Of a stretch of 64,000 nt of DNA, positions 1 to 59,617 are shown one piece after another (within the stretch, counting starts at the first letter, position 1; each line of letters opens with the position of its first letter). This DNA is from Candidatus Poribacteria bacterium. Its GTDB lineage: Bacteria; Poribacteria; WGA-4E; WGA-3G. A program made the translations under genes and the position numbers. The notes below the pieces were generated by a model that had not been told where the DNA came from, ran no database searches, and saw only the letters and a program-made list of their open reading frames with translations. The stretch lies in the NCBI GenBank assembly GCA_028821605.1, contig JAPPFM010000010.1, positions 62,001-126,000 on the forward strand. Direction: 5' to 3'.

Positions 1-31
1 CCTCAACAACACATCCAATTTTAACTGTCAT
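1..31 (-). CDS. DUF4276-like protein, first 10 codons only (runs off window)
   Basis: An ATG at 31 to 29 overlaps the TGA stop of the upstream ATPase gene (ATGA overlap), so the two are translationally coupled. The ten visible residues read MTVKIGCVVE. A short beta-strand ending in VVE(G) at the extreme N-terminus is how DUF4276 (TOPRIM-like) proteins begin, and these commonly follow AAA_21-type ATPases. Only 10 residues are visible, so the family call is inference from context and this short match. Confidence 0.45.
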   Translation of the reverse strand, partial: MTVKIGCVVE

Positions 32-1281
32 TCACACATTCCTTTGTTCTGGGTTTCAGCCGATTCATCTTGTTGGAAACCAAATAAATTAAGCTGCACT
101 GCCTTCTTCTCATAGGCTATAGATGCCTTTGGGTCAGGTTGCAATTGATCTTGGCGTAGAAGTTCTCCTATTGTAAACAGTTTATCGCGCACGACAGACC
201 TGCTAACTTCGTTAACAGGAGCAATTACTGTATTTCCATTATACGCTTTAACCGCGAGAATAGAATCCACATCTAAGTGTTTGTCCTCAAGGAGGTCGGG
301 GCTATGAGTGGTGGTAATCACCTGTCTCTTGTGAGCAGCGTCCCGAAGAGCATCAAGTAAGACTCCTGCGGCTGCTGGATGAAGAGCAATCTCTGGATCT
401 TCAATTCCTACGAGCGTCACGTTTTTTTGAGCGTCGTAATCTCCTTGGAATAGTGCTACGAGAATCCCCAAAGCGCGGAGTGTGCCATCAGACATATTGT
501 TTGCGAGAAATCGCCCTCGGTATCCGTTATCTGTGATCTTCGGTCTAAATGATAATGTCTGCTTGGTACCAAACGTTTTGACATCCACCTCACGAACATC
601 GAGATTGACTAATGCTAGGTACTCCTCAATGTCTTGCTTCACAGTGGATGATAACTGTTTGAAAACACTTGTCAGGTTCCGCCCATCACGAAGAAGCATA
701 TCCCCAGGATCCGGGCCTTGGAGGTCTCGGATTCTATCCGGATTGAGGTTATAAAATCCCATCCGAGAAAATGCTTCATAGACAGGACGAAATTCGGGCA
801 GTCCGGAAGCGTTCACCAAGTAGAGGCGATCTATTACAGCCGCCGGTGCGACTTTCACGCTTGTGGCCGTTACAGTCCCACTCTTAACACGAAAGTATTC
901 TTCTGACGCGCCGCACGCCCCATTTTGAATGCTACACTCTTCAGTCTGCACCTCGTAACCTCCAGGGGAACGCCTTCTGATTCGGAAAGCATAGTGCCCC
1001 GTAAAACCTTCAGGCAGAGCAAATTCAAGGCGGATGCTGAAATGGTTCGGATGGCCGCGGGAGCGGCGACGAACATCATTGATCCCTCCGCGATCGCGTA
1101 TTGCGTGTTCTAGTGATGAATTCAACGCATCTGCCACGAATCGAAGGGCATCCAGAAAATTACTTTTACCAGCACCGTTGCGACCTACAAGAAACGTCAA
1201 GGGTTGTAGCTGCACATCACACGCGGCGATGCTCTTATAGTTTTTCAGAATAACTCTTGTGATAAACGTTGAATCTTTCAT
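28..1281 (-). CDS. AAA family ATPase (AAA_21 / RecF-SMC-like)
   Basis: A 417-residue P-loop ATPase of the SMC/RecF/OLD type. It shows a Walker A motif GRNGAGKS near residues 33-40, a signature-like NNMSDGT, a Walker B strand ending in GIEDPE near residue 290 and a downstream TTTHSPDLL switch motif. There are no membrane segments or signal peptide, so it should be cytosolic. I chose the ATG at 1281; a TTG at 1293 is also open but lies too close to the GAGG upstream. It follows the PhyH gene by 18 bp and overlaps a DUF4276-like gene by the stop codon. ATPase plus TOPRIM-like nuclease pairs of this kind occur in anti-phage systems such as OLD/Gabija/PARIS-type modules. A defence role here is inference. 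Confidence 0.85.
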   Translation of the reverse strand: MKDSTFITRVILKNYKSIAACDVQLQPLTFLVGRNGAGKSNFLDALRFVADALNSSLEHAIRDRGGINDVRRRSRGHPNHFSIRLEFALPEGFTGHYAFRIRRRSPGGYEVQTEECSIQNGACGASEEYFRVKSGTVTATSVKVAPAAVIDRLYLVNASGLPEFRPVYEAFSRMGFYNLNPDRIRDLQGPDPGDMLLRDGRNLTSVFKQLSSTVKQDIEEYLALVNLDVREVDVKTFGTKQTLSFRPKITDNGYRGRFLANNMSDGTLRALGILVALFQGDYDAQKNVTLVGIEDPEIALHPAAAGVLLDALRDAAHKRQVITTTHSPDLLEDKHLDVDSILAVKAYNGNTVIAPVNEVSRSVVRDKLFTIGELLRQDQLQPDPKASIAYEKKAVQLNLFGFQQDESAETQNKGMCE

Positions 1282-1299
1282 TTCAGTATTCAAACCTCG

Positions 1300-9813: not shown

Positions 9814-10647
9814 TCAGTAATTTTTGATGAACAATTCTTTCCCTTTTGCTGCACTTTCCTGCCTATAATTATTCATTCCATATTGTAGTGTCCACTCTTG
9901 AATCTCAGCAAAATCGAAGAGTTCCCTAATGACGGCGGAGTCGTCGTAGGTAATCAGCCATTTATGCGGACATTTCCTCATATTCTCAGCGAATCGCACA
10001 TGGTCAAATGCAGTATGCAGCGCACCTCTTACCCCGTATAGTTTTGATTCAGTTGCTTTCCAATAGGGTGGATCCAGAAAAATAAATACATCTTCGCCAT
10101 CGTGGAGAAGTGAATCCGTGTAATCTCCATTTGTAATTTTGACTCCAGAGAGATATGGACAGATGTTTTTCACGCGTTCAATGGATGATTCTGTGAAACG
10201 CTTCTCGTAAGCGGCTTGTGAATACCCTCCGGAATCCACGACCCCGGAGAAGGTAATACGATTGAGTATGAAGAAACGCACCGCGCGTTGAAATTCGCAG
10301 AGCATATCTCGGTTCTGATTCAGTTTATCTTTTCCGTGTGTTAATTCCTCAAATAGAGCGCGGCCATCTGTAGCAATGGTGTGTGTCTCTGTTAGTGTTT
10401 CAACCAGGTCCAGCGCATTGTCTCTTGCCTGTTTCCAAAAACAGTAGAGATCGTAGTTGAGGTCATTAATCCAATAAGATTTGATGCAACTTTGGAAGAG
10501 ACTTCGGATTGCAAAAAAGACGGAACCTCCACCGACGAAAGGCTCACGAAATTCCGATATATTCACCGGAATAAGTGGTAGAATCTGTTTTAGTGCCCTT
10601 GATTTACCCCCTGGGTACCGTAGTGGACTTTTTGCTAATTTAGCCAT
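9814..10647 (-). CDS. DNA adenine methyltransferase (D12 class, Dam/DpnM-like)
   Basis: A 277-residue N6-adenine methyltransferase of the alpha/D12 class. The AdoMet-binding motif I is split as LRYPGGKSRAL (residues 8-18) and FREPFVGGGSVFF. The catalytic motif IV is DPPYW near residue 195, and a C-terminal GKELFI ends the fold. Length is normal. Its start overlaps the 3' end of the nuclease gene by 8 bp, so the two form an operon with the nuclease first. The methylase would protect host DNA, with a target possibly GATC-like as in many D12 enzymes. It appears intact even though the nuclease gene is frameshifted. Confidence 0.9.
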   Translation of the reverse strand: MAKLAKSPLRYPGGKSRALKQILPLIPVNISEFREPFVGGGSVFFAIRSLFQSCIKSYWINDLNYDLYCFWKQARDNALDLVETLTETHTIATDGRALFEELTHGKDKLNQNRDMLCEFQRAVRFFILNRITFSGVVDSGGYSQAAYEKRFTESSIERVKNICPYLSGVKITNGDYTDSLLHDGEDVFIFLDPPYWKATESKLYGVRGALHTAFDHVRFAENMRKCPHKWLITYDDSAVIRELFDFAEIQEWTLQYGMNNYRQESAAKGKELFIKNY

Positions 10648-11781
10648 GACGACCTGTTATCCATATCTGTAATTTGTTATTTTCACTCGCCTCTTGATTG
10701 AGTAGGACGAGTCTTTTTTGATGGGTTTGGGTCAAGCGATTTTCTGCACAGAAACCAAATATGTGGTCTGGCGCACATGGTAAGAATAGACTTCCAATGA
10801 GATCGCCAGTTAGTTTTAATCGTGTGATAAATTGAATGTTTGTTCTCTCATTGACCGATACTTCTTCCATATTTGCAAAAAGAATCAGTTTGAACAGACC
10901 GTCCTTTATGTCATCTTCAGATGGTAGTTTTCCTTTGCTGCTATTCTTTGATTCTTGTATGACTAATTGGTTATGTTCCCAATAAACCTCATCAGCAGTT
11001 AGATAGTACTGCCCACCGAGATAATTTGAGATGCGAAATGTCCCTTTAGCATTTTCCTCAAGGGACTCCAGAATATGTGTCGTTAAGGATTCTCTATGAG
11101 CAGCCTCGTATGAGCGCGGGAGGGTTGCTTCTTTGAAGCGTGTGAGACTGAAACGATCGTCCACCTTAAATTTTTCAAGAGTTTGCAAGTGATTCTTTGG
11201 GCTGTGAACGGCGACGTTTTTCTCTTGAGATATTTTCTTGTATCCGTTAATAGCGTTCAAATAAATCGACTCAAAATCTTCCTCAAAGTGGGTTGTGTTC
11301 CAGTGTAACGCTGTCATTTGATACTGACTTACCTCACGCAATTTTTCACGCACGCCGTCAGTATTCAGAATCTGATCTGTAATTCGGTCGGTTGTCCCCG
11401 ATTTTCTTTCGGCATCCTCGTACCACGCTAAGATGATATAGATGTTTAGGAGATTCATCCATGAAAACGTAATAAAGTTAATGCGGTCATTGTTCTGTGT
11501 ACCTGCTCCCTCATCTTTAATGATTGGAATAACCGTGACCTTTTTTGTGTTGAGATGGTATGTGTTATAAATTCGGGCGAAAGGATAGGAGCGCGTCCGT
11601 TTTGGTGAAACCCATTTTGAAAAAGCTAAGTTATTTTCGGGGCACCCAAATTGATGAGTCCGTATGTTTGTACTTTGTTCACATCAAATTGTGTTATGTC
11701 ATATACATTAAGTGCCTCTGGACTGAGACAGGGCATGTATCTTACATCTCGCACGAAACCTTCAAGAGAGAGGTTTGTCAT
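10640..11781 (-). pseudogene. Type II restriction endonuclease-like gene with a -1 base frameshift
   Basis: A gene of about 380 codons broken by one frameshift. The ATG at 11781 sits 6 bases behind a perfect AGGAGG and opens 51 codons (MTNLSLEGFVRDVRYMPCLS...) that stop at TAG 11626. A second frame, open from 11683 to the stop at 10640, takes over with ENNLAFSKWVSP and later IIKDEGAGTQNNDRINF, which is clearly protein-like and has no start codon of its own until 11458. Restoring one base in the run CCCCGAAAA (about 11636-11643) joins the frames as NLGAPENNLAF. The C-terminal half has a PD-(D/E)xK-like strand pair (VYWEHNQLVIQESKNS). Position directly before and overlapping a D12 methylase supports a restriction nuclease. 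The cause may be true inactivation or a homopolymer base-call error. Confidence 0.75.
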
Positions 11782-32424: not shown

Positions 32425-32467
32425 AATTATGCTATCAGGCGATTTTTTAGAGCGAGGCGTTTTCCCA

Positions 32468-34513
32468 ATGAGACTGACACGATTTTTGATTTTAACGCTG
32501 TTTCTTGTTCCAATCCTATTTCGTATGAGCGTTTCCGCGCAGGATTATACCCAATGGCATTTACCCGAGGGTGCCAGAGCACGTCTCGGTAAAGGTGTAA
32601 TAACAGGGAACATTGCGTATTCTCCCGATGGCAGTCTGTTTGCCGTTGCCAGTTCCATCGGTGTCTGGCTTTACGATGGGGAGACCCATCAAGAGATTAA
32701 CTTGCTCATCGGACATACAGAACGGGTTTTGGTCGTTGCATTTTCTCCTGATGGCGAAACGCTTGCGAGTGGAAGTTCGGACAACACAATTCAGTTATGG
32801 AACCCGCATACAGGCGAGCAGAAATTAACGCTTGAAGGACACAGGAACGATGTTCTTTCCATCGCGTTTTCGCAACAGATAAACTTACTGGCAAGTGGCA
32901 GTTTGGACAAAACAGTTCGATTGTGGGATACGGATACCGGTGAACGTATAACGACTGTCAGGGAACATAGCGGGTCGGTCACTTCTGTCGCCTTTAGTCC
33001 AGATGGTATAACATTTGCCAGTGGTGGCGGACACAGAGACAACACGATTCGGTTATGGAGTCGTACGGGAGATGGTTTCCAGTCTACTACCCTCACTGGA
33101 CACACACAAGGGGTTGCGTCCGTTACGTTCAGTCCGGATGGGCGCACCCTTGCGAGTGGAAGTGCGGATAACACAATTCGGTTGTGGGATACACAAACTT
33201 TTAAACGCAAGGCGACTATCACCGAACATACAGGTTCGGTCACTTCCGTTGCATTTAGTCCGGATGGGCAGATGCTTGCGAGTGGGAGCGAAGATAAGAC
33301 GATTCGATTATGGGATCCACAGACTTTTGGACATAGGGCAACCCGCACAAAGCATACGGATTCGGTCACATCTGTTACATTCCGTTCAGATGGACGGACG
33401 CTTGCCAGTTCAGGTAATGATCAAGTAATTCAATTTTGGGATTATACCACCTTCCAACATAAATCTACCCTCACCGGACATACTTTTCCAGTTAATGGTA
33501 TTGCGTTCGCTCCTAATGGGAGGATTTTTGCAAGTGTAGACGATGGCAAGGCGATTCGTTTGTGGGATGCGAACACAGGGTACCTCCAGGACACGCTCAT
33601 TGGACACGAAGGGCGCGTCTTTTCCGTTGCGTTCAGTCCAGATGGTGAAACCCTCGCCAGTGCCGGAGCGAAACCGGATACTGCAATTCGATTATGGGAT
33701 GTACACGCTCGCCAACCTAAGGAGCCTATCGCAAGCCATAAGTTTGGTGTGGAGTCCATCGTGTTCAGCCGAGACGGTCAAACTCTTGCGAGTGGAAGTT
33801 GGGACAGCACAGTTCGATTGTGGGATGCAGATACAAGTGGTCACAAAGCGACTTTCAGAACCGGTGCCAATGTCTATTCTGTAATGTTCAGCCCAAATAG
33901 TCACACGCTTGCCAGTGGCGGTCAGGACAACACAATTCATTTGTGGGATGTAGAAAGCAGGGAACGCCAAGCAACTTTGAGGGGGCATTCACGTCCTGTT
34001 GATTCTGTTGCGTTTAGTCCGGATGGTGTCACACTTGCCAGTGGTAGTCGAGATAACACAGTCCGATTGTGGAATATACAGACGGAGCGGTCCTATACAA
34101 CCCTCATCGGGCATAAGTTTCGTGTTAAGTCGGTTGTGTTCTTTCCAGATGGTAAGAGGCTTGCGAGCGGAAGTTGGGACAATACGATTCGGTTGTGGGA
34201 TACACAAACTGGGGAACTCCAAGCAACACTCACGGGACATGTGTTGGGTGTTAATGTGCTTGCGCTCTCTCGAGATGGTGGGACACTTGCCAGTGGAAGT
34301 GCTGACGGCACGATTCTCTTGTGGGAATTCACACCTATTGTACTGCGAGTCGTAGAGGATGTGAATGGCGATGGCGTGGTGAACATCCAAGATTTAGTGC
34401 TGGTCGCATCGAACTTCGGGCAAACTGGCGCGAATGCAGCAGATGTGAATGGTGATGGCGTGGTGAACATCCAAGATTTAGTGCTGGTCGCATCGAACTT
34501 CGGGCAGAATTAA
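32468..34513 (+). CDS. Exported 14-repeat WD40 protein with C-terminal dockerin type I domain
   Basis: A 681-residue secreted protein with a signal peptide (MRLTRFLILTLFLVPILF..., cleavage after SVSA). Fourteen WD40 repeats can be counted, each with a core like VAFSPDGxTLASGSxDNTIRLWD, enough for two seven-bladed propellers. The last 50 residues hold two calcium-binding dockerin repeats (DVNGDGVVNIQDLVLVASNFG) encoded by an almost identical DNA duplication. Dockerins bind cohesins, none of which is encoded in this window. The ATG at 32468 is preferred because it begins the signal peptide; 32429 is also open. It begins 43 bp after the lactamase-fold gene. Confidence 0.88.
   Translation: MRLTRFLILTLFLVPILFRMSVSAQDYTQWHLPEGARARLGKGVITGNIAYSPDGSLFAVASSIGVWLYDGETHQEINLLIGHTERVLVVAFSPDGETLASGSSDNTIQLWNPHTGEQKLTLEGHRNDVLSIAFSQQINLLASGSLDKTVRLWDTDTGERITTVREHSGSVTSVAFSPDGITFASGGGHRDNTIRLWSRTGDGFQSTTLTGHTQGVASVTFSPDGRTLASGSADNTIRLWDTQTFKRKATITEHTGSVTSVAFSPDGQMLASGSEDKTIRLWDPQTFGHRATRTKHTDSVTSVTFRSDGRTLASSGNDQVIQFWDYTTFQHKSTLTGHTFPVNGIAFAPNGRIFASVDDGKAIRLWDANTGYLQDTLIGHEGRVFSVAFSPDGETLASAGAKPDTAIRLWDVHARQPKEPIASHKFGVESIVFSRDGQTLASGSWDSTVRLWDADTSGHKATFRTGANVYSVMFSPNSHTLASGGQDNTIHLWDVESRERQATLRGHSRPVDSVAFSPDGVTLASGSRDNTVRLWNIQTERSYTTLIGHKFRVKSVVFFPDGKRLASGSWDNTIRLWDTQTGELQATLTGHVLGVNVLALSRDGGTLASGSADGTILLWEFTPIVLRVVEDVNGDGVVNIQDLVLVASNFGQTGANAADVNGDGVVNIQDLVLVASNFGQN
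34358..34509 (+). repeat. Tandem 84-bp duplication encoding the two dockerin motifs
   Basis: Two units, 34358-34425 and 34442-34509, begin GATGTGAATGG(C/T)GATGGCG and are almost identical over about 67 bases, with a period of 84. Identity at synonymous positions shows recent duplication or gene conversion within the gene. Confidence 0.85.
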
Positions 34514-48995: not shown

Positions 48996-51362
48996 TCAGT
49001 TGCCTCTACGTTCTTCAACCCACTCGAGAATCATCTCACGGTTTTCGGTGTCGCCGTGTTGCTGGAACCGATTAGCGAGTTGTCTGCCGGTTTCGATGAG
49101 GAGTGTATCCATCTCTTCGGATTTTGATTTCAGCGCGAGTTGATATTTTTCGACAGCGGCGGTTGTCTGTTTCCGATGCATCAAAGAGATAGCGAGAAGG
49201 CATCGAACCTTAACGAGGGTTTTCTCTCTCGTTTTATTCCCGCGCCTACGGATCAACTGCGATTCCAACGACAACAGATTCCTAAAGGCAGGCATGTTAA
49301 TTGGGTCTTTCTGGAGGACGGTTTCAAAACCAACAAAGGCTTCCGCGTGTTTGCCTTCGACGAGGTAGAGATAACCGATGGTGTTGTAGATTTCAATGTC
49401 GCGCTTGGCTTCAGGGATTGCCTCGAATTCAGCGAGCGCGGCGGCGTATTGCCGTTGCCGCATGAGCGAATTCCCACGTCGGATTTGCAGGTTAATCTGT
49501 TCTTCTTTTGCCTGTCGGTTTTCCGGTTCTTGTGCCAAAATGCGGGATACTTCGACAGCGGCACGTTCATAGTCTCCAGCACCCTGATAGGCATTCGCAA
49601 GGCTTAAACGTAGGTTCAGATCGGTCGGCGCGAGTCGAAGTGCCTCCACAAGCAGCTGGATCGCTGTCGTGTAGTCTTCCGTATCGCTGAGGCTTCGCGC
49701 ATAGTGGTGATACGCGGCGATGAGGTTGTGCATCGCGTGATCAGCGTTAGGATCGACATTGTAAACGTGCTGAAATACGGACAGTGCGTCGGCATAGTCG
49801 CCTTTTTTCAGATATAATTCACCGAGCAGATTACGGATGTGCATTTCGTCTGGATGAAGTTTCTGCAGTTCGAGATACGCTTCCACCGCTTCGTCAAGTT
49901 CATCGGCTTCGCTGTGAGCATTTGCCTTACGGGTAAATGCATCGCTCAGGTTTGTTCGGGCAATGTGAAGCGTGGGCATCAACCGTAAAGCGTTACGATA
50001 GGCGTCAATCGCCTCGTCCCATTTCTCACGATTTCGGAGGGCTACGCCGTAGTTGTTGTAGCATTGTGCAAGGTTTTGTTGTGTCAGCGCGTCAACGGGA
50101 TTGAGGTCGATTGCTTTCTGGTAGTAGTTGATCGCCTTTTCAAACTGCCCAACCTGGGCATATCCGTTGCCCATGAGTTGATATGTGGGCGCATCGAGCG
50201 GCTCCATCTGCAGCACCCTTTCAAAGGTGGTAGTAGCGGTCTCGAAGTCTTTTAATGCTAACGTTCTAAATCCCTTTTCTCGGAGGAGTTGATGCAGATT
50301 TCGCCGTGCGGCTTTGTGGTATGGGGCAATGTGGAGTGCTTTTTCAAACGCTTGTATTGCCTTCTCAATATCTTTTTTCTCGTAATAGAAGATACCGAGT
50401 GTGTTGTAATCTGCTGGAGACGGTTTTAGGGTTATCCGTTTCTCAAGGAGAGCGATCGCCTCGTGGGTTTCACCTGTTTCATGATAGGCTTGGATCAGCT
50501 TTTCTATTGCGGATTGAAACTTGGGGTCCAGTTGTCTACAAGTCTGGAAGCTTGCGATTGCTGACGCTGTATCCCCTTTATCGAAGTAGACGGTTCCGAG
50601 GAGGTAGTGTGAACGGAGATGTTTTTTAACGTCTGCGTGAGGTTTCTCTTCAATCTCGGCTTTCAACATTTTTATCGCGATGTCGTGTTGTGGTGTATCA
50701 AGCGGCGTCCTATAAAGTTTCCGTAAGGTGGTTATATCACGTGGTGATGGGTATTGTGCTGTTGCCGTCGGATAGTTGATGTCCCCTGGATGTGGACTAT
50801 GTCCCCATAAGCCGATTGCGTGTCCGAACTCATGAAGACATACGGTACGCATCTCTTCCTGTGATAGTTCACCGATGGTCGCGTCGCCTTCTAACATCAG
50901 GATTACCTCGACTGTGAAAGGACGTGTGGAAGTGGAGACAGACTGATTTTGCTCGACAGTTTGGGTTGTCTCTTTGAGGCGCGTGAGTTCTGCACTGCCG
51001 AGTCTGGTGTCCTGAAAATCGGTGAGGAGACCAGTGTAGCCCCAACTCACACGAATGTCTGCGTTCTGAGGTGTCTCAGTTTCTTCAAATTGAATGTCGC
51101 CGTCACTGGTAGTCTGCCATGTCTGCATGGCGTATCGGATTTCAGGTAGATATGGACTGTCCTTTAAAACAGGTGAGATATACACCCGGATCGGCATCTC
51201 TGTGAAACGGGTGATTCTTCCCTGAGAGAAGAGCGTGATATAGTCGAAATAGTCCGCGTTCGCTAATTGGGAGACTTCTTGTGCTGTTACGTTATTGAGA
51301 AATATGAAAGCAAAAACTATCAGGATAATGGCAAAATAGTTTTTTAGAATTCTCGTTTGCAC
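48996..51362 (-). CDS. Exported matrixin-type metalloprotease with TPR array
   Basis: A 788-residue secreted protein. The signal peptide (LKNYFAIILIVFAFIFLNNVTA) is followed by a zinc metzincin domain at about residues 40-215 with the motif HEFGHAIGLWGH, whose three histidines bind zinc and whose Glu is the base. From about residue 220 to the end there are roughly 12 TPR units (e.g. YNTLGIFYYEKKDIEKAIQAFEKALHIAP). The combination suggests a protease with a protein-binding scaffold in the periplasm or outside. I take GTG at 51362 as start, 6 bases behind GGAGG; TTG at 51365 is also possible. It is the last gene of the caspase cluster. Confidence 0.87.
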   Translation of the reverse strand: MQTRILKNYFAIILIVFAFIFLNNVTAQEVSQLANADYFDYITLFSQGRITRFTEMPIRVYISPVLKDSPYLPEIRYAMQTWQTTSDGDIQFEETETPQNADIRVSWGYTGLLTDFQDTRLGSAELTRLKETTQTVEQNQSVSTSTRPFTVEVILMLEGDATIGELSQEEMRTVCLHEFGHAIGLWGHSPHPGDINYPTATAQYPSPRDITTLRKLYRTPLDTPQHDIAIKMLKAEIEEKPHADVKKHLRSHYLLGTVYFDKGDTASAIASFQTCRQLDPKFQSAIEKLIQAYHETGETHEAIALLEKRITLKPSPADYNTLGIFYYEKKDIEKAIQAFEKALHIAPYHKAARRNLHQLLREKGFRTLALKDFETATTTFERVLQMEPLDAPTYQLMGNGYAQVGQFEKAINYYQKAIDLNPVDALTQQNLAQCYNNYGVALRNREKWDEAIDAYRNALRLMPTLHIARTNLSDAFTRKANAHSEADELDEAVEAYLELQKLHPDEMHIRNLLGELYLKKGDYADALSVFQHVYNVDPNADHAMHNLIAAYHHYARSLSDTEDYTTAIQLLVEALRLAPTDLNLRLSLANAYQGAGDYERAAVEVSRILAQEPENRQAKEEQINLQIRRGNSLMRQRQYAAALAEFEAIPEAKRDIEIYNTIGYLYLVEGKHAEAFVGFETVLQKDPINMPAFRNLLSLESQLIRRRGNKTREKTLVKVRCLLAISLMHRKQTTAAVEKYQLALKSKSEEMDTLLIETGRQLANRFQQHGDTENREMILEWVEERRGN

Positions 51363-51397
51363 CAAGTGCCTCCTAATTGTGAATTGAGTAAGTTGAG

Positions 51398-51430
51398 GTG
51401 AAACTCAACGTGTTACGCGTTAAGTTTCAC
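51398..51430. repeat. Intercistronic 13-bp inverted repeat
   Basis: GTGAAACTCAACG (51398-51410) and CGTTAAGTTTCAC (51418-51430), one mismatch, 7-base loop, in the gap between the DUF4384 gene and the TPR-protease gene. There is no T-run, so it is more likely an mRNA-processing or stabilising hairpin, or another short repeat, than a terminator. Confidence 0.6.
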
Positions 51431-51448
51431 TTCGTCTAATCGATCTGC

Positions 51449-53113
51449 TTATTTTTCTGCTGTTGTTACCACAATCCGTACCTCGCTCTGTAAGAAGTCG
51501 GAATGTGGTTCATCTGTGTCAGGTGGTATCGGCTTCAGTCCCCGAAAACGTTGAGCCGCCAACTTTGGGTCTGAATCAGTCAGATAGAAATAGCCGTTTG
51601 CCTCATGCGTTTCGATGGGTGGGAACTCCTCTGTTCGTGCTGCAACGACTAAAAATTCTGTGCCAAACGGTGCCGCACATATAAATTCTCCGATTTCGAC
51701 AACACTGTTGGCTTGGGAAGCATCAATATAATAGTTATCTTGTAGCAGTGTGCGTTTTCTATCGGCAAGGGTATAAAGCAATCGGACATAAGCAGTTTGA
51801 TTCACGCGTACAAAAATTTTGACTTTTTCATCTTGAACGTAACGCTGGGAACCTTTTCCTCGGTTGGTCCATACTTCAACCTCTAACTCTTCAAGAGGTA
51901 TAGCGTTTTCTGGGTCCCTAGCAAGTGGTGGATAATTTTGAGGATCGAAAGCGTCTATCTCAGGACGCATCTGTTCATAATTGATGGGTTGGTAGATGAT
52001 GGATTCGCCACGAATTTGCGAACGTAAAAACCGCACAACAGCTGTTGCTACAAAGTCGCCGGTGTTTAGATTGCGCACCGTTGTCCTAATTGTAATTTCA
52101 TCGCCGTTTTCCCAACATGAGCAGGTAATTCGATTCTGCGGAGCCATTAGGTCTATTTTGTTGATGTCGGGCGCGGTCTGTTTAAAATTGTGCATGGACC
52201 CAATAATGGGCCAGTTAAGGTGTGTTAGCAGTGCTTCACTAAACCTTTGTGAAAATGGACAAATCATCTCGGAATCTTCATAGGTAACCGGTTCTATCCA
52301 ACATTTGCGAGGCCCGGTATCGCGCTGCCGTGAAAGTTGAAATTCGATAACTTTGGCAACGTCATCAGCGGAAACGATCATTGGTGAATCAAGTTCTGTG
52401 ACACGCTTGATTACCTCTCTGTGTGACATCTGTAATGTACCGCTGGTACTTGTTGCCGCTTTTGCCAATCGCTTGAATGCCTCTGTCGAATTAATGTGGT
52501 ATCTATATTCGGCCCCGATCTGAATAATCTCTGCTTCTTTCAATGCTTCGTAGAGCGGATAGGTTTGCAGATATTTCCTCACCGCGACTTCGATCTCGAA
52601 TACTTCCTCTGCAAATTTGGCGGACTCAAGGAGGTGGTTAATCTCTTTGGAGAGTTCTGAGACGTGTTCGGCATAATGCTGCTTGAGTTTGTCCCGGTCA
52701 ATGTAGAAAAGAGCATATGTATCTGGGTCTGTACGCGCCAAATCGACAGAGAGATTTCGGACACTAAATCCTCTTAGTCTCATTGCTGGTTGCTCTTGAC
52801 GTGAGTCGCAGTAGTCTTCCATGACTGCGCTATAGTGTTCCTGTACCACATCGTGTTGCAATTCGGATTTGTTAGCAAGAAAGATGCGCTCTGCATTGTC
52901 GAGAATCCTTGAAGTGACTTTTCTATGAGCAACAGCGGTCGCTGCTTTAAAGGCTGGCTCTCCTGTTCCTAGACTTTGGCCTATATGAAAAAGATATTTC
53001 TCAATTGGATATTTCTTTAATTCAGGTGCAATCCAATCAGGTAGTGCCGAATTCGCTGTTAAGGTGTAGATTGTTGTCAGGACAATCAAGGAATAAAAAA
53101 ATAATTTTCGCAT
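51449..53113 (-). CDS. Exported LPP20-like protein with C-terminal DUF4384 domain
   Basis: A 554-residue protein with a signal peptide (MRKLFFYSLIVLTTIYTLTANSA). The N-terminal half has an LPP20-like layout (YLFHIGQSLGTGEPAFKAATAVAHRKV, then long helices), while the C-terminal 150 residues fit DUF4384: VEVWTNRGKGSQRYVQDEKVKI, then VRVNQTAYVRLLYTLADRKR and LLQDNYYIDASQ. DUF4384 domains are often encoded next to, or fused to, caspase-fold proteins. It starts 26 bp after the WD40-caspase gene, in one operon. Confidence 0.7.
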   Translation of the reverse strand: MRKLFFYSLIVLTTIYTLTANSALPDWIAPELKKYPIEKYLFHIGQSLGTGEPAFKAATAVAHRKVTSRILDNAERIFLANKSELQHDVVQEHYSAVMEDYCDSRQEQPAMRLRGFSVRNLSVDLARTDPDTYALFYIDRDKLKQHYAEHVSELSKEINHLLESAKFAEEVFEIEVAVRKYLQTYPLYEALKEAEIIQIGAEYRYHINSTEAFKRLAKAATSTSGTLQMSHREVIKRVTELDSPMIVSADDVAKVIEFQLSRQRDTGPRKCWIEPVTYEDSEMICPFSQRFSEALLTHLNWPIIGSMHNFKQTAPDINKIDLMAPQNRITCSCWENGDEITIRTTVRNLNTGDFVATAVVRFLRSQIRGESIIYQPINYEQMRPEIDAFDPQNYPPLARDPENAIPLEELEVEVWTNRGKGSQRYVQDEKVKIFVRVNQTAYVRLLYTLADRKRTLLQDNYYIDASQANSVVEIGEFICAAPFGTEFLVVAARTEEFPPIETHEANGYFYLTDSDPKLAAQRFRGLKPIPPDTDEPHSDFLQSEVRIVVTTAEK

Positions 53114-53139
53114 GGGTTGAATTCTCCTTATTTATAGTT

Positions 53140-55701
53140 TTATTTTGCAATAAATAGAAAATCACTCCCAGGGGCATTTCGACCAAATTCGTCAAAACAC
53201 GGCGTTGGATCGCTGAGGTCCTCGAGGTAGGTTAAAATTTCCTTTATAGTTAAAACGTTATCGCGACCACCTTTGCTTCGTAGAGCCTCAAGCAGTGCTC
53301 GAACGAATAATGAATCGTCGGGAACCTGTTCCTTAGCCCCTGAAGTCAAATACCAGCGAGTTGTATATGTCAACTTTTGCTTAATATCTTCGCTGGAGAG
53401 TATTTCTGGCAAATTTTCCAATTCGCCACGCATGGCGAGCCGTTCATCAAATGTCCCACTATAGCAGGTATCCATTACCAAAAAGATGTGTTCACATGCC
53501 ATTCTGTCAATAATATCTCGGAAATGAGAGTGGGATAAATAACTCAACAGCCTGCCGCTATCGTTAGGACGTTGGGTATCTTGGGCGACAAGGTATCCTA
53601 TTTTAAATCCCTCGTTGAAGTAACCGTGTCCAGCAAAGAAGATGAGCAGCTGATCTTCGGGTGCATATTCTTTCTGCGCGTACCTATCTAATACCTCAAG
53701 TACTTCTGTCTCTGTCGGGTTTTCAATCAATTCAACTTGAAAGCCGTAGATCTGCTCCAAATCTTGCTTGATGTTTATCGCGTCAACACGCGGATATTGA
53801 AGTCCGAGCCAGTGATCATAAGTGTCCACGGCGAACAACAACGCGTAATCTTTTCGAGTCGGCGGTGGTGGTTCAACAGTTATTTCCTTAATTGATTGGT
53901 TGCTCCATGTGTCTATTGCTGTTACTCGAATGAGGTTGTTACCTTCAACCAATGAGACTGTTGTTTTGAACCTATTCTCTTTAACCTCTGCTCCTATGCC
54001 ATTCACCTTGACTTCAGCAATCCCACTTGGATCAGTAACTGTACCTGAAACAAGGACAGACTCGGCTATGATTATAGGCTGGAACCCACGCCGGTCGCTG
54101 TACTCCGGAGAGAGGATTTGAATCTCGGGTCCCTCGATATCTTCTCGATGGACCGTGAGGATGTTCGTGTCTATTTTATGCTGAGTATCAGTTGCGGTGA
54201 CATGGATCTCGTTTTCTCCAAAATCGAGTAGGATCGTTGCAGTGAATTCACCTACTTCCGAAACCATCATTTTCACATCGTTGACCCAAACTTCGGCAAT
54301 ACCCGCGTCATCGATGACACTGCCTTCAACAGTAAACTGCTCGGTAGTTACACGGACAGAATGTGATGTGGGCGAATGGATAACAATCTCAGGCGGTATT
54401 GGGACAATGGGTTTGGGTTTAGGTTCTTCACGAACGATGGTGAATCGGTGTGTCCCGGTGTTACTGTATACATCTGTTGCAGTGATACGGATTTCATTTT
54501 CGCCGTGATTGAGTGGTACTGTTCGTCTGAATACATCCACCTCTAAAATAGATGCTTCCTTACCATTAATCCATACATTGGCAATCCTGCTGTCGTCAGT
54601 AACGTTGACTTTAACCTGAACCTCCCTGGCAGTCGATTTCACGATACCTTCCATAGGCGAATGAATAACAATTTCAGGTGGCATGATATCTTGAAGTTGT
54701 GGCTTAAACCCGAAGTGGGAGAGATCCCAGAGTAAAACGGTGCGGTCCCTGCTACCGCTGGCAAGCATTCTGCCATCAGGCGAAAACGCAACAGAGGTTA
54801 CCCCACCGTGGTGTCTGATGAGCGTGGGAACCTCGCGATGATTGACAACATCCCACAGTTTAACAGTGTAATCAACACAAGCAGAGGCAAGTAATTTTCC
54901 ATCTGGCGAAAACGCTACTGCTTCAGCGTAAACATAGAGGTTGTTCCTAATTTCAAAGGTAGCGGAGTTTTCTCCAGAAGAGACCTTCCAGAGTTTGATA
55001 GTATTATCTCGACTTGCCGAAGCGAGTGTCTCACCATCTGGTGAAAATACAACGGCGTGAACGACACTACTGTGTCCAGAAAGGGTTTTGTGTAATTGCT
55101 GGTCCGCGACATCCCAGAGTTTGATAGTCTTGTCACGACTTGCTGATGCAACCAACTGTCCATTGGGTGAAAACGCAACGGATTCGACGATACTTTCGTG
55201 TCCAGGGAAAGTAGCGATATCGCGTTTTTGAGAGACATTCCATAACTTAACAGAACCCTCTTGATCTTCTCCACCGCTAACCAGCGTTTTCCCATCGGGT
55301 GAAAACGCGACTGACTCCACCCAACCGCCGTGTCTAAGAGAAATGCGTCTGCCTTCAGAAGAAACATGCCACAATCTCACATAGCCATCAAGACTTGTCG
55401 ATGCAAGCAATTTCCCATCGGGCGAAAACGCAACCGATGTCACCGATTTGCTATGTTCTATGAAAGTCTCGCGTTCACTTCTCTCGGCAATATTCCACAA
55501 TATAACGGCGTTATCATCACCACCGCTCGCGAGTAGTTTTCCATCGGGTGAAAATGCAATAGTATACACCGAAGCCCCGGGGCTAAATCGCGCTATCGCC
55601 CCATCAGGAAGGCGGTCAGTAGGTGCCTGTCCATCTGCAGCAGTGAGACTTGCCAGATACATCAGAAGTGTCGCATTGAAAAGGAAAATTTTTCGTTTCA
55701 T
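53140..55701 (-). CDS. Exported WD40-Ig-like-caspase (peptidase C14) protein
   Basis: An 853-residue protein. The signal peptide is residues 1-24. Seven WD40 repeats (about 35-335, core VAFSPDGKLLAS...IKLWD) make one propeller. Three Ig-like/bacterial beta-sandwich repeats (about 345-610) each open PPEIVIHSP or GPEIQILSP and end GENEIxxTATD. A C14 caspase domain follows from about residue 615, with the histidine in FFAGHGYF and the nucleophile in MDTCYSGTF. Both catalytic residues are present, so it should be an active cysteine protease, probably cleaving after basic or acidic residues. Being exported, it would act outside the cytoplasm. Confidence 0.9.
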   Translation of the reverse strand: MKRKIFLFNATLLMYLASLTAADGQAPTDRLPDGAIARFSPGASVYTIAFSPDGKLLASGGDDNAVILWNIAERSERETFIEHSKSVTSVAFSPDGKLLASTSLDGYVRLWHVSSEGRRISLRHGGWVESVAFSPDGKTLVSGGEDQEGSVKLWNVSQKRDIATFPGHESIVESVAFSPNGQLVASASRDKTIKLWDVADQQLHKTLSGHSSVVHAVVFSPDGETLASASRDNTIKLWKVSSGENSATFEIRNNLYVYAEAVAFSPDGKLLASACVDYTVKLWDVVNHREVPTLIRHHGGVTSVAFSPDGRMLASGSRDRTVLLWDLSHFGFKPQLQDIMPPEIVIHSPMEGIVKSTAREVQVKVNVTDDSRIANVWINGKEASILEVDVFRRTVPLNHGENEIRITATDVYSNTGTHRFTIVREEPKPKPIVPIPPEIVIHSPTSHSVRVTTEQFTVEGSVIDDAGIAEVWVNDVKMMVSEVGEFTATILLDFGENEIHVTATDTQHKIDTNILTVHREDIEGPEIQILSPEYSDRRGFQPIIIAESVLVSGTVTDPSGIAEVKVNGIGAEVKENRFKTTVSLVEGNNLIRVTAIDTWSNQSIKEITVEPPPPTRKDYALLFAVDTYDHWLGLQYPRVDAINIKQDLEQIYGFQVELIENPTETEVLEVLDRYAQKEYAPEDQLLIFFAGHGYFNEGFKIGYLVAQDTQRPNDSGRLLSYLSHSHFRDIIDRMACEHIFLVMDTCYSGTFDERLAMRGELENLPEILSSEDIKQKLTYTTRWYLTSGAKEQVPDDSLFVRALLEALRSKGGRDNVLTIKEILTYLEDLSDPTPCFDEFGRNAPGSDFLFIAK

Positions 55702-55845
55702 CGGATTAGCGTACTTTCATTACTAACCTGTGTATATACAGGTTATCGCTAAGGCGTATCAAAGATAGTCTGGGTATAGACAAATTTCATATTAATTATA
55801 CATAAGAGGGCGGATAAGTCAAGTCTTTTCGCGCGGGACAGTATT

Positions 55846-56922
55846 TCACTCTACAATGTAGAGTCTTTTCTTAATTTCCGAATGGGTTAAGTCGTTGGAT
55901 GCTTCAAAACGCAAAGTAACATGTACTTCTTGAGGTGCCATCTCTGAGTCCGTACTGAAACCTAATGATCTTGTTGCTGACGTTCCGGGCGCGATGTTAC
56001 CGAATTTTAGATTCCAATTGTTGAAGTGAGAGGTGGAACTGACCGTTATAACAGTGAATTCTGTCAGCGCGGTTTCGCTGGTATTTTTCAACGTGATTTT
56101 TAATGTTGCCTTTTCACCGGCGCGCAAACGGTTTTCAACCCACTGTGCGTTTATTTCGACTTGTGGTGTAGGGGAAGGATCGGGTTCAGGTGGAGAATCT
56201 GGTGGCGTAACGGAAAGGTTAGATAGAGACGGGATAATAATTCCTGAGACTGTGTAATGTTTGCTGTGCTTTTTTTTTCCTACTTGGGTAGAAGCTTGAA
56301 ACTGGAGTGATATAATATCCTGTGATTTAATATCTTGGAGGACTGAGTGATTCCCGAGTTTGTTCAAAAAATCCTTGATTTCAATATACTCAGTTCCGCT
56401 TACTGTTCTATAATCTATACCAATATTATCATAATCCAGAAGTTCAATACGGTATGGATGATCTATAAGAGGCTTTCTTTCAGTCCTTATGGCCTTTCGA
56501 TCAAATGGATATGAAAAAGCCCAGTAGAGTAGAATATCCGCTGGTACTCCAATCATCACCGCTTTTTCCCAGGGTTCTGAGCCGTACCAATCGAACGTAT
56601 CATCGGCAAAGGTGAATGTATAGTCGTGATCCCAATTATCATACAGAACCTTTCCCAAAAGGCCCAGGGAGGCGAGACCAACACCGAGATCGGTGAGGGT
56701 TATCCGAGGTTTATATATGGTATAAGGCTGATGTTCCAGAGTTACACTGAGGCTATGGTTTGTTACATTAAATCCGAGTTGAAAATCCAGATCCATCTTG
56801 GTTTTATTGGCTTTCTTAACTCCGTACCCAATCCGGGTTTCGGCGAACCGAACCACCGAGCACCCTGTGATATTTATTAGTATCAAAACCGTAAATGTGA
56901 ACACGGTTAAACTTTGTTTCAT
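55846..56922 (-). CDS. Lipoprotein with CARDB-like C-terminal domain
   Basis: A 358-residue protein. The lipobox NITGC at about residue 20 follows a hydrophobic stretch. The middle contains a hydrophobic segment (ADILLYWAFSYPF) and a KKANKTKMD region of unknown fold. A Pro/Ser linker (PPDSPPEPDPSPTP) precedes a C-terminal CARDB/NPCBM-associated-like beta-sandwich (GEKATLKITLKNTSETALTEFTVI, GNIAPGTSA). I prefer ATG at 56922, directly behind AGGAGG; GTG at 56928 overlaps that site. It lies 144 bp upstream of the caspase gene on the same strand. Confidence 0.75.
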   Translation of the reverse strand: MKQSLTVFTFTVLILINITGCSVVRFAETRIGYGVKKANKTKMDLDFQLGFNVTNHSLSVTLEHQPYTIYKPRITLTDLGVGLASLGLLGKVLYDNWDHDYTFTFADDTFDWYGSEPWEKAVMIGVPADILLYWAFSYPFDRKAIRTERKPLIDHPYRIELLDYDNIGIDYRTVSGTEYIEIKDFLNKLGNHSVLQDIKSQDIISLQFQASTQVGKKKHSKHYTVSGIIIPSLSNLSVTPPDSPPEPDPSPTPQVEINAQWVENRLRAGEKATLKITLKNTSETALTEFTVITVSSTSHFNNWNLKFGNIAPGTSATRSLGFSTDSEMAPQEVHVTLRFEASNDLTHSEIKKRLYIVE

Positions 56923-56946
56923 AGACACCTCCTTTTTTCTAGTGAA

Positions 56947-58104
56947 TTAACTGCGACTCGCCAGTTTATTTGAGAAGATACTGATTAACCCACCTAACAT
57001 CAAATACCCAAAAATGACTTCCAACGTAACGAGGAAACGCGCAGCGGTATTGTCCGCGACGATATCACCAAAACCGAGCGTTGTGAAGGTGACAACGCTA
57101 AAGTAGAAACAGTTCCAAAAGGTTAAAGGTTCACCGCTGTAAATACCCGTCGTCTGATGAAAGCGGGGCGACCAGTCCTGCATCCAAGTGGGTGTCCACG
57201 CTGGGAGGGGCATGTACGCAAGCGCGAACAGAAACGCGAAGAAGAGGGACCAGGATGCCCAGAGTACAAGACTCCGTCCATAGTCGGAGCTCCATCGCCA
57301 TAACTTTGCCAGTATAGGGTTTGCCTGATTGAACGCACGTGTGAACTGTTGATCGGCGACATACCGTTTAAAAAAAGGGTTCGCGACTTCGTCTACATGT
57401 CGGCTCTCCAGATAGAACGCGGTGGGACGATGCTGTTTTCTACTGAGTTTCGCTTTCACTGCATGAAGGAGTGTGTCTGGAATATACTGAACATCGCGGA
57501 AGGCAGCGACAGAGACAAATTGCGCGGCAGTAAAGTTGGCGGTGCCGAAAAATGTGGCGTTGTTAAACGCTGTCGCTTCAGGAAACCATGTGCCTGTGCA
57601 ATCGAGTATCCCTTGGAACAACGCACGCCGAAAATTGACTTCGATTAGGAAGTTAGCCTCATGAAAAATGGCGTTTTCGCTGAATTGTGTCCTGTGGAAG
57701 TCGGCGACGTTGTGAAATCTTGCCCGCCAAAAACTGGCACTTTTGTGGAAGACTGCACTATGAAAGTCAGCACGCCTCTGAAAGATAGCTTCGCGAAATG
57801 CGCACGGACCGTGTAAAATGGCTTCATCGAAGTCAAGATCTGCCTCAAAGAGGGAGCGACGAAAATTCACCTCTTCTTGGAAGACGACTGTCCGGAAATT
57901 AACGATGTTTTTAAACGTGCACCCGATGCAGGAAAGTTTCTTATTGAGAAGAATCCGGTGGTTTTCGTCCCGTTCCCATTCTCTAAAAAAGAAATCGACG
58001 ACCCCTTCAATCGTGCAATTCGTGAAAGTGACTGATGCAGCGTCGCTTTGTAATGCGTCAAGGAAGATTTGCGCTTTGATTGTTTCTCCGTGCTTCTCGT
58101 ACAT
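56947..58104 (-). CDS. Pentapeptide-repeat protein fused to a two-TM potassium channel
   Basis: A 385-residue membrane protein. Residues about 20-215 are pentapeptide-type repeats with the A(D/N)(L/F)xx pattern (NFRRSLFEADLDFDEAIL...ADFHSAVFHKSASFWRARF), predicted to form a right-handed quadrilateral helix. A membrane helix at about 277-300 is followed by a pore loop with the K+ selectivity signature TLGFGD near residues 342-347 and a second membrane helix to the end. This is a minimal Ion_trans_2 channel. It starts 43 bp after the upstream ATPase gene, so the two are probably cotranscribed. Confidence 0.87.
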   Translation of the reverse strand: MYEKHGETIKAQIFLDALQSDAASVTFTNCTIEGVVDFFFREWERDENHRILLNKKLSCIGCTFKNIVNFRTVVFQEEVNFRRSLFEADLDFDEAILHGPCAFREAIFQRRADFHSAVFHKSASFWRARFHNVADFHRTQFSENAIFHEANFLIEVNFRRALFQGILDCTGTWFPEATAFNNATFFGTANFTAAQFVSVAAFRDVQYIPDTLLHAVKAKLSRKQHRPTAFYLESRHVDEVANPFFKRYVADQQFTRAFNQANPILAKLWRWSSDYGRSLVLWASWSLFFAFLFALAYMPLPAWTPTWMQDWSPRFHQTTGIYSGEPLTFWNCFYFSVVTFTTLGFGDIVADNTAARFLVTLEVIFGYLMLGGLISIFSNKLASRS

Positions 58105-58147: not shown

Positions 58148-59617
58148 TTAAAATTCCGTAAGAAGGTCCGCAAGCGGATTTTCGAGAACCGGTTCCTTTT
58201 CAGGTCGAACAATGGGATGACTTATCCCATCTTTGAGGTGATAGACTTCGACATCGTCGGGCGTTAACCAACATAACTTTGGGACGCGCGCTTCTATCTC
58301 AGCAGCATCCCCTGGATTCCTTTTTGACAGTTGTTCAGCGGTCAAGAGGTTGTTAAGAGCCGCCAAAAGATATGGACTATGGGTTGTCAGGACGATTTGG
58401 CTGTCAATGTGGTTTCGCATCAAGGCGATGATGTGCATGAGATGTTTCTGTGTTTTTGGGTGTAAATGGGCTTCCGGTTCTTCAATCACGCGAAAAATCA
58501 TTTCGTTGTAAAGCATGCTCATGAACACATCTTGTAGGATCCGGATGACGTTTTGCTGTCCTGTTGATGCGTGTTCTAAAAAAGTTGTATTCTCGCCGGT
58601 TGGGTGCGAAAAAAGCCGAGATTGGGAAATTTCGTCGATTGTTTCATATCTACTGTTTAAAATACGAGAAATTTTTTTCAGTAGGAATTCCATCATTGGT
58701 TTATCAATTTCATCTGATTCCTCCTCGATTCTCTGGTCAAAGAGATTCCGAAAGTTCTGTGTGCTGAAGGTATCCAGGAATTCCTCATTTTTTTCCAAAA
58801 AGCGTGCGATGAGATGAAGATTCGCGCGTGAACGGGTTGCAGCGCGCGTGTGAAGATCGCTTTTTATGCCACCATAAAAAATCCTTTTAAGGGCATCTGG
58901 GTAGTTGGCAGCAATATTTCTATCTGCAGGAATAAAAAGGCTGTCGCGATATTTACCGGCTAATTTCTCAGTGATGTCACTCATTCCGATCGCCATGTTC
59001 AGAATATAATAGAACCGATCGGCATTTTGGGTGTCTTGGGCGTTTTCTGAAGTTGTATCTGTTTGTACGGGTGAGTTGGTCTCTGTTAAGGCACTCTCGA
59101 GTTGTTTTAAGTTAACCTCTTTCAACTTCTCCAGTAAGTTGTAGCAGAGGCTTTCGACTTCGTCCATAACATCGGGTAACGCAATATGGAGCGTTTTCTC
59201 TTCGGTTAACGTCAGCCTGATGGTGCTTTCCCTTGTATAGTGGTAAGTGATTTCAAACGGTTTTGTGGCTTCCTCTTTTTCCTGAGTCGGTTTTTGTGTG
59301 GTAGGGTCTTTACTTTTCAGAACGGGTTTTGAGAACTCCTTGACATCACCAAAAAACTCTCGGAATTTGCGGGCAATTTGCGTCTGGAGTACCGTTGACA
59401 TTTCTTGTCCGGGGGTTTTCAGATATTCCGGCGGGTGTGTATTAATTTGTCTGAGGTGTTGGCGAAAATCGCGGATTAACTCTTGGAAAAGGTACAATAA
59501 CTTCGCGAGGACACTCTTCCCGCTGGCTGTTTCACCGATAAAAACCACTAAGGTTTTATCCATGTCGATCTCTGCTTCACGGATATTTATGAAGTTCTTG
59601 ACAACCAGTTTAGGCAT
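58148..59617 (-). CDS. AAA family ATPase (RecF/OLD-like), partner of the channel gene
   Basis: A 489-residue P-loop ATPase of the SMC/RecF type. Walker A GETASGKS lies at residues 28-35, a long helical insertion follows, then a signature-like ASTGQQNVIRIL, Walker B VIEEPEAHLHP and TTHSPYLLAAL, then a C-terminal tail. There is no nuclease domain. TGGAGG precedes the ATG. The next gene in the same direction is the pentapeptide-channel, so the pair looks like sensor ATPase plus membrane effector. A defence role is inference. Confidence 0.85.
   Translation of the reverse strand: MPKLVVKNFINIREAEIDMDKTLVVFIGETASGKSVLAKLLYLFQELIRDFRQHLRQINTHPPEYLKTPGQEMSTVLQTQIARKFREFFGDVKEFSKPVLKSKDPTTQKPTQEKEEATKPFEITYHYTRESTIRLTLTEEKTLHIALPDVMDEVESLCYNLLEKLKEVNLKQLESALTETNSPVQTDTTSENAQDTQNADRFYYILNMAIGMSDITEKLAGKYRDSLFIPADRNIAANYPDALKRIFYGGIKSDLHTRAATRSRANLHLIARFLEKNEEFLDTFSTQNFRNLFDQRIEEESDEIDKPMMEFLLKKISRILNSRYETIDEISQSRLFSHPTGENTTFLEHASTGQQNVIRILQDVFMSMLYNEMIFRVIEEPEAHLHPKTQKHLMHIIALMRNHIDSQIVLTTHSPYLLAALNNLLTAEQLSKRNPGDAAEIEARVPKLCWLTPDDVEVYHLKDGISHPIVRPEKEPVLENPLADLLTEF

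Follow-up and report, generated by a model that had tools for sequence, protein, structure and literature searches.

An exported caspase, a lipoprotein and an LPP20/DUF4384-like protein form a separable three-gene cassette in Candidatus Poribacteria

The genes considered here lie on the minus strand of a 64,000-nucleotide stretch (the window) of contig JAPPFM010000010.1, which is part of a 6.0 Mb Candidatus Poribacteria genome in 60 contigs (GCA_028821605.1, labelled G000). The original prediction for this stretch described four consecutive minus-strand genes encoding a lipoprotein, a WD40-Ig-caspase, an LPP20/DUF4384 protein and a matrixin-TPR protein, and treated them as one set. All four genes are present with the domains as named (Table 1), and the caspase gene is the single C14 gene in the whole genome. 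However, the set proved to be separable. Occupancy of the site was scored in 36 genomes of the window's genus (two further genomes were unscored), and in 28 of these the matrixin-TPR gene directly follows an upstream channel gene, with only tens to ~200 bases between them. In the other eight genomes, the window among them, the lipoprotein, caspase, and LPP20/DUF4384 genes are found between the channel and matrixin genes; for three of the eight, the arrangement was pieced together over contig breaks. Every examined genome of the genus has the matrixin-TPR gene, as do 81 of the 118 genomes in total, and in most cases the caspase is missing. The real unit is a three-gene cassette and the matrixin gene is a core neighbor. 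No mobility genes, tRNAs, or Rfam elements were found at the cassette, nor were direct repeats evident by eye at its junctions.

The order of the trio is kept well beyond this site: it recurs at other sites in G035 and G055, beside the matrixin gene but without the channel gene in G039 and G047, and on a phage-derived contig. In five further genomes (G040, G005, G054, G036, and G070), the lipoprotein forms the N-terminal part of a fusion protein with a caspase, the scanned fusions being devoid of the WD40 part, which points to direct cooperation of the two proteins. Most LPP20 loci likewise have a caspase within 500 bp, the LPP20 homologues of G083 and G084 being cases in which no adjoining caspase was found (the G084 contig is just 5 kb). 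LPP20/DUF4384 genes of other subfamilies are also located beside caspases, including those within caspase-PEGA-FGE-sulfatase arrays. Among named genomes, relatives of the cassette proteins were found only in Candidatus Poribacteria metagenome-assembled genomes (MAGs), in a search of limited reach with two short peptide patterns.

Table 1. Features of the cassette and its borders (window coordinates)
Feature	Coordinates	Strand	Remarks
Right flank: exported matrixin-like-TPR protein	48996..51365	-	Core gene of the genus, outside the cassette
Right junction: LPP20 stop codon to matrixin start	51366..51448	-	Abuts the left side in 28 empty-site genomes
LPP20-like / LpoB-FlgO-like / DUF4384 protein, exported	51449..53113	-	Cassette member 3, allele type A
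WD40 propeller, three Ig-like (Glucodextran_B) domains, caspase (C14) protease, exported	53140..55701	-	Cassette member 2
Sigma-70-like promoter TTGACT-N16-TATAAT upstream of the caspase gene	55795..55822	-	Predicted
Lipoprotein	55846..56922	-	Cassette member 1; lipobox ITGC, two hydrophobic segments, C-terminal Ig-like (CARDB/ASH) domain
Left junction: channel stop codon to lipoprotein start	56923..56946	-	Ribosome-binding site AGGAGG
Left flank: pentapeptide-repeat/ion-channel protein	56947..58104	-	Outside the cassette

Occupied genomes are scattered over the matrixin tree, requiring at least seven state changes across 36 tips, and a tree in which they form one clade is rejected (approximately unbiased test, p-AU 1e-80). 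Such counts cannot separate gain from loss. Since the on-site cassettes form one clade and, outside of swapped tracts, diverge about as much as their flanks, the simplest reading is that of an old resident subject to repeated loss and recombination. The swapped tracts themselves are readily apparent from synonymous divergence (dS). Between G000 and its sister G008, dS is 0.2-0.4 for flanking genes as well as the WD40-encoding half of the caspase gene and 1.0-1.7 from the Ig domains through LPP20, while for G000 and G012 the LPP20 gene has a dS of 0.23 (0.18-0.30) and the flanks 0.8-1.1. The trees agree, with the lipoprotein pairing G000 with G008 and LPP20 pairing G000 with G012, each with 100/100 support. 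Two types of LPP20 protein can be distinguished, which share ~40% identity in the middle domain, compared to 57-84% within one type; type B carries a lipobox (TIGC), and type A, found in the window, has an ordinary signal sequence. The ratio of nonsynonymous to synonymous divergence (dN/dS) is <0.45 throughout, and 0.10-0.23 in the C14 domain, indicative of replacement rather than demonstrable positive selection. These sequence comparisons show that the LPP20 gene, plus the Ig-caspase half in the G000-G008 pair, was replaced by recombination, and that the flanks were inherited. In G008, G019, and G047 a contig ends inside LPP20, and these breaks may reflect strain variation.

The trio is also carried by a 33.9 kb IMG/VR contig (3300012932_000188) encoding terminase, portal, head protease, major head, neck, and tape-measure proteins. 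The gene order of this contig matches that of prophage segments in G020 and G003, two Poribacteria genomes of the same genus (the terminase, for example, is 91.5% identical). Its trio is located directly behind the tape-measure gene on the same strand, and has a predicted promoter of its own (TTGACA-N16-GATAAT) between the tape-measure gene and the lipoprotein, as well as a GC-rich hairpin. In the G020 and G003 prophages, other genes follow the tape-measure gene and the trio is absent from that position. The phage-contig caspase is sister to the G035 copy in the caspase tree (100/98). An annotated phage collection yielded no match to LPP20, and an annotated plasmid collection none to the lipoprotein.

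The two chromosomal copies at other sites are both found in the company of anti-phage genes. In G035 the trio follows two CAP12/Pycsar-type TIR proteins, and the channel-matrixin site of this genome is empty, while in G055 it is bordered on one side by a DNA methyltransferase gene and its likely partner and on the other by homologues of the Druantia proteins DruF, DruL, and DruE. G035 and G055 belong to different genera, and their cassettes differ by a dS of only 0.9-1.35, even though host genes are saturated or nearly so (channel dS 2.8). The G035 cassette has also diverged widely from the one in its near relative G021, despite channel genes that are 93% identical. Together, these observations amount to transfer of the whole trio. 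No defense genes were recognized among the listed neighbors of the fused copies or of the on-site copies labelled g3.

To assess export, we relied upon hydropathy over 11-residue segments together with motif reading. A hydrophobic N-terminal core was present in 11/11 lipoproteins, 11/11 caspases, 10/10 LPP20 proteins, and 45/45 matrixin orthologues. The minimum hydropathy among these cores is 1.8, while cytosolic controls from the same loci (GFO, AAA, and MurB) range from 0.2 to 1.9, a slight overlap at the edge. The lipobox is invariant in all 11 lipoproteins. Thus, the earlier claim that all four products are exported is borne out at the level of prediction, and the signals are conserved, as every full-length orthologue has such a core. 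The accompanying description of two intact proteases held for only one of them. Both caspase motifs, GHG and DTCYSG, are invariant among 12 orthologues, as is the catalytic dyad (H692 and C746), whereas the metalloprotease motif HEFGHAIGLWGH reads HExxHxxGxxxH, one residue more than the metzincin HExxHxxGxxH, and all 45 orthologues have N, C, or S in place of the Met of the Met-turn, so that "intact" is too strong for a protein lacking the combination of zinc motif and Met-turn. Basic-specific paracaspases and metacaspases carry an Asp two residues before the catalytic Cys. The caspase has an invariant Asp in this position (D744), which fits a predicted cleavage after Arg/Lys. Orthocaspases have similarly been reported to cleave after single basic residues (PMC6426788), a requirement so loose that predicted cleavage sites in the partner proteins would not be discriminating.

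The domain assignments are of unequal strength. The caspase protein scores 61.5 bits against Peptidase_C14 (PF00656; curated cut-off 21.4), 254.5 bits against WD40, with seven WD40 stretches, and 115 bits against the Ig-like Glucodextran_B family, and it falls below the threshold of the EACC1-associated caspase model NF047832 (58.5 bits versus 140). Matrixin (PF00413) is matched at 32.8 bits (cut-off 24) by the right-flank protein. The window LPP20 protein reaches just 21.5 bits against DUF4384 (PF14326; cut-off 27), a family that was matched by 16/16 aligned homologues at E values up to 0.1 (best, 4e-10). Only 3/16 homologues match the LPP20 profile (PF02169; best E 2.6e-5) and the window protein does not, so for this protein the LPP20 label holds only by way of its relatives. 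In a structural model of this protein (predicted local distance difference, pLDDT, 76), the middle domain resembles LpoB (Foldseek E 8e-4) and the C-terminal part appears to be a beta-sandwich. The lipoprotein ORF (open reading frame) begins at ATG 56922, preceded by AGGAGG, and its two hydrophobic segments (residues 76-94 and 124-142) enclose a highly conserved aromatic/acidic loop; its model (pLDDT 65, predicted template modelling score 0.38) was too poor for a fold search. The predicted promoter of the caspase gene is kept in 8/8 compared cassettes having a gap between the lipoprotein and caspase genes.

The patchy presence of the trio, its allele swapping, and its phage and defense company suggest a role in envelope conflict, i.e. 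attack or defense at the cell surface, and not a housekeeping function. Our tentative preference is therefore for a mobile caspase module that is anchored in the envelope and belongs to the conflict or lysogenic-conversion type. In such a module, the lipid and the two hydrophobic segments of the lipoprotein would hold the protease at a membrane, the WD40 and Ig domains would sense a periplasmic or surface signal, and the variable LPP20/DUF4384 protein could serve as a cognate regulator or substrate. Upon activation, the caspase would cleave envelope or incoming proteins after Arg/Lys, with an output that may consist of excluding other phages, self-sacrifice upon infection, or attack on neighboring cells. 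Several observations weigh against this interpretation. Only one phage contig was found and it stops at the LPP20 stop codon, so phage genes border the trio on the left side only within its reach; the right border is located beyond the contig end, and a prophage edge or a chimera is possible. As described above, the simpler reading of the on-site cassettes makes most of them old residents and not recent arrivals. No system in PADLOC-DB 2.0.0, our source of anti-phage models, matches the trio, the caspase scoring 30 bits on a generic caspase model. Just two chromosomal copies reside in defense neighborhoods, and defense genes are not locally rare, as the window itself has a type II methyltransferase/restriction pair 40 kb off. 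The defense link is thus a lead from a small sample rather than a statistical result. Lastly, the caspase-type defense proteins that are known act in the cytoplasm.

The main rival, which we consider unlikely, is a host-facing symbiosis factor: a surface caspase whose action on proteins or cells of the sponge modulates recognition or phagocytosis, much as ankyphage ankyrins do. Candidatus Poribacteria are a dominant phylum of marine sponges and encode many exported eukaryote-like repeat proteins (PMC3909097), and the named LPP20 relatives all derive from MAGs of this phylum. Secreted ankyrins of sponge-symbiont phages dampen sponge immunity (PMC7064744), and a phage-derived contig holds the cassette. 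In addition, the channel-matrixin gap of G055 carries other exported WD40 and LRR/LDL-receptor-repeat proteins. However, the 28 empty sites make the cassette dispensable for a lifestyle shared across the genus, while lipidation and the two hydrophobic segments favor its staying at the bacterial membrane. No secretion signal other than Sec/lipobox was found, and the off-site neighbors are anti-phage genes.

The conflict reading could be taken one step further, with the trio defining a new class of phage-related extracytoplasmic conflict system, in which a caspase tethered by its lipoprotein, equipped with a propeller as sensor and paired with an LPP20/DUF4384 protein that can be exchanged, would travel with prophages and defense islands and convert an envelope event into proteolysis; in this specific form, it seems rather unlikely. 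Constitutive envelope quality control, with the caspase degrading damaged periplasmic proteins and the LpoB/FlgO-like protein serving as an adaptor, is decidedly improbable. The conserved promoter, the low C14 dN/dS, and the modelled resemblance of the LPP20-protein middle domain to LpoB, an envelope factor, would be in keeping with it, but patchiness, allele replacement, phage carriage, and defense neighbors are unexpected for housekeeping. Finally, the originally proposed four-gene proteolytic cascade of caspase and matrixin has very little left in its favor: the genes are adjacent in eight genomes plus G039 and G047, all of the products are predicted to be exported, and in G038 a different caspase-LPP20 set adjoins the matrixin gene, but the empty sites rule out a four-gene unit, the matrixin gene occurs mostly without the caspase, making a cascade encoded as one unit unlikely, the metalloprotease motif is non-canonical, and the trio occurs apart from the matrixin gene in G035 and G055 and also, within the stretch covered by the contig, in the phage-derived copy.

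Several elements of this mobile caspase module have precedents. The premise that prokaryotic caspases usually act in the cytoplasm was overstated, as a 2012 survey found at least one transmembrane helix in 15% of metacaspases, often N-terminal and probably a signal peptide, and exported and WD40-bearing prokaryotic caspases were on record by 2012, with surface or fratricidal action already proposed (PMC3501461). These metacaspases and orthocaspases resemble our protein in the HC dyad, p20-type domain, WD40 fusion, and N-terminal membrane or export segment (PMC3501461); here, in contrast, an N-terminal WD40 region is followed by three Ig-like domains, the lipoprotein and LPP20/DUF4384 partners are constant, and the trio is mobile. 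DUF4384 has also been linked to caspase homologues (PMC7475262, PMC6426788), and caspase-DUF4384 and caspase-WD40 proteins occur in cyanobacteria and proteobacteria, whereas in the cassette DUF4384 belongs to an exported protein of its own that also has LPP20-like and LpoB/FlgO-like parts. Exported prokaryotic caspases and both the DUF4384 and WD40 links are therefore already known. With phage morons and ankyphage ankyrins, the trio shares a promoter of its own, an exported product, and a position as cargo behind a symbiont-phage tail gene; it differs in comprising three genes including a caspase and in residing on chromosomes as well. The caspase domain has no close relative among solved structures, its best PDB sequence match being the MALT1 paracaspase at a marginal E of 0.02. 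MALT1 likewise combines Ig-like domains with a caspase domain, but the present protein is bacterial and exported and has WD40 in place of a death domain, and descent from a common source is unsupported. Bacterial gasdermin-protease systems employ a caspase-type protease in prokaryotic conflict. The same is true of Craspase/TPR-CHAT (PMC9729208). Unlike these cytoplasmic systems, the cassette is exported and has no gasdermin or CRISPR gene. Our literature search, for which subscription journals were mostly outside reach, returned no account of the trio, the empty site, the allele exchange, or the phage copy. Many prokaryotic caspases exist, most of them with no assigned role, and the reason for the export of some is a standing question. 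The trio is compact, and its natural empty site in sister genomes, phage-derived copy, lipoprotein-caspase fusions, and two LPP20 allele types make this question testable in laboratory strains. Should phages or the sponge prove to be what it acts upon, it would to our knowledge be the first caspase module shown to function at a bacterial envelope.

A number of additional features were observed at these and related loci. The channel-matrixin gap of G055 (L162:1929-8835) encodes two exported proteins, one made up of WD40 repeats and one with LRR, LDL-receptor class B repeats, and dockerin, indicating that the site accepts other eukaryote-like exported cargo, and in G017 (L157:1477-2598) an IS605-type OrfB (TnpB-like) element interrupts the channel gene. 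In other Poribacteria (L078:9247-16193, L081, L082, L077, and L075), caspase-PEGA-FGE-sulfatase arrays adjoin LPP20/DUF4384 genes. Small lipoproteins with a GSWE(L/M/V)V-like stretch also recur beside such genes (L064:11687, L083:7730, L084:7538, and L088:10616), and the three that were scanned had no Pfam match over the cut-off. Two lipoprotein-caspase fusion genes (L100:9499-14165 and L101:14144-18341) are near pairs of what read as DnaK-like ORFs. Within the window, the restriction-modification pair (9814-11458, minus strand) consists of a D12 methyltransferase and a restriction enzyme. An AAA ATPase at 28-1293 (minus strand) scores 512 bits to PADLOC HEC-01A, though its partner genes would fall beyond the window, and another at 58148-59617 (minus strand) scores 115 bits to AriA and is a core neighbor of the channel gene, at empty sites too. 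A long exported WD40 protein with a dockerin-like C-terminus can also be read at 32429-34513 on the plus strand.

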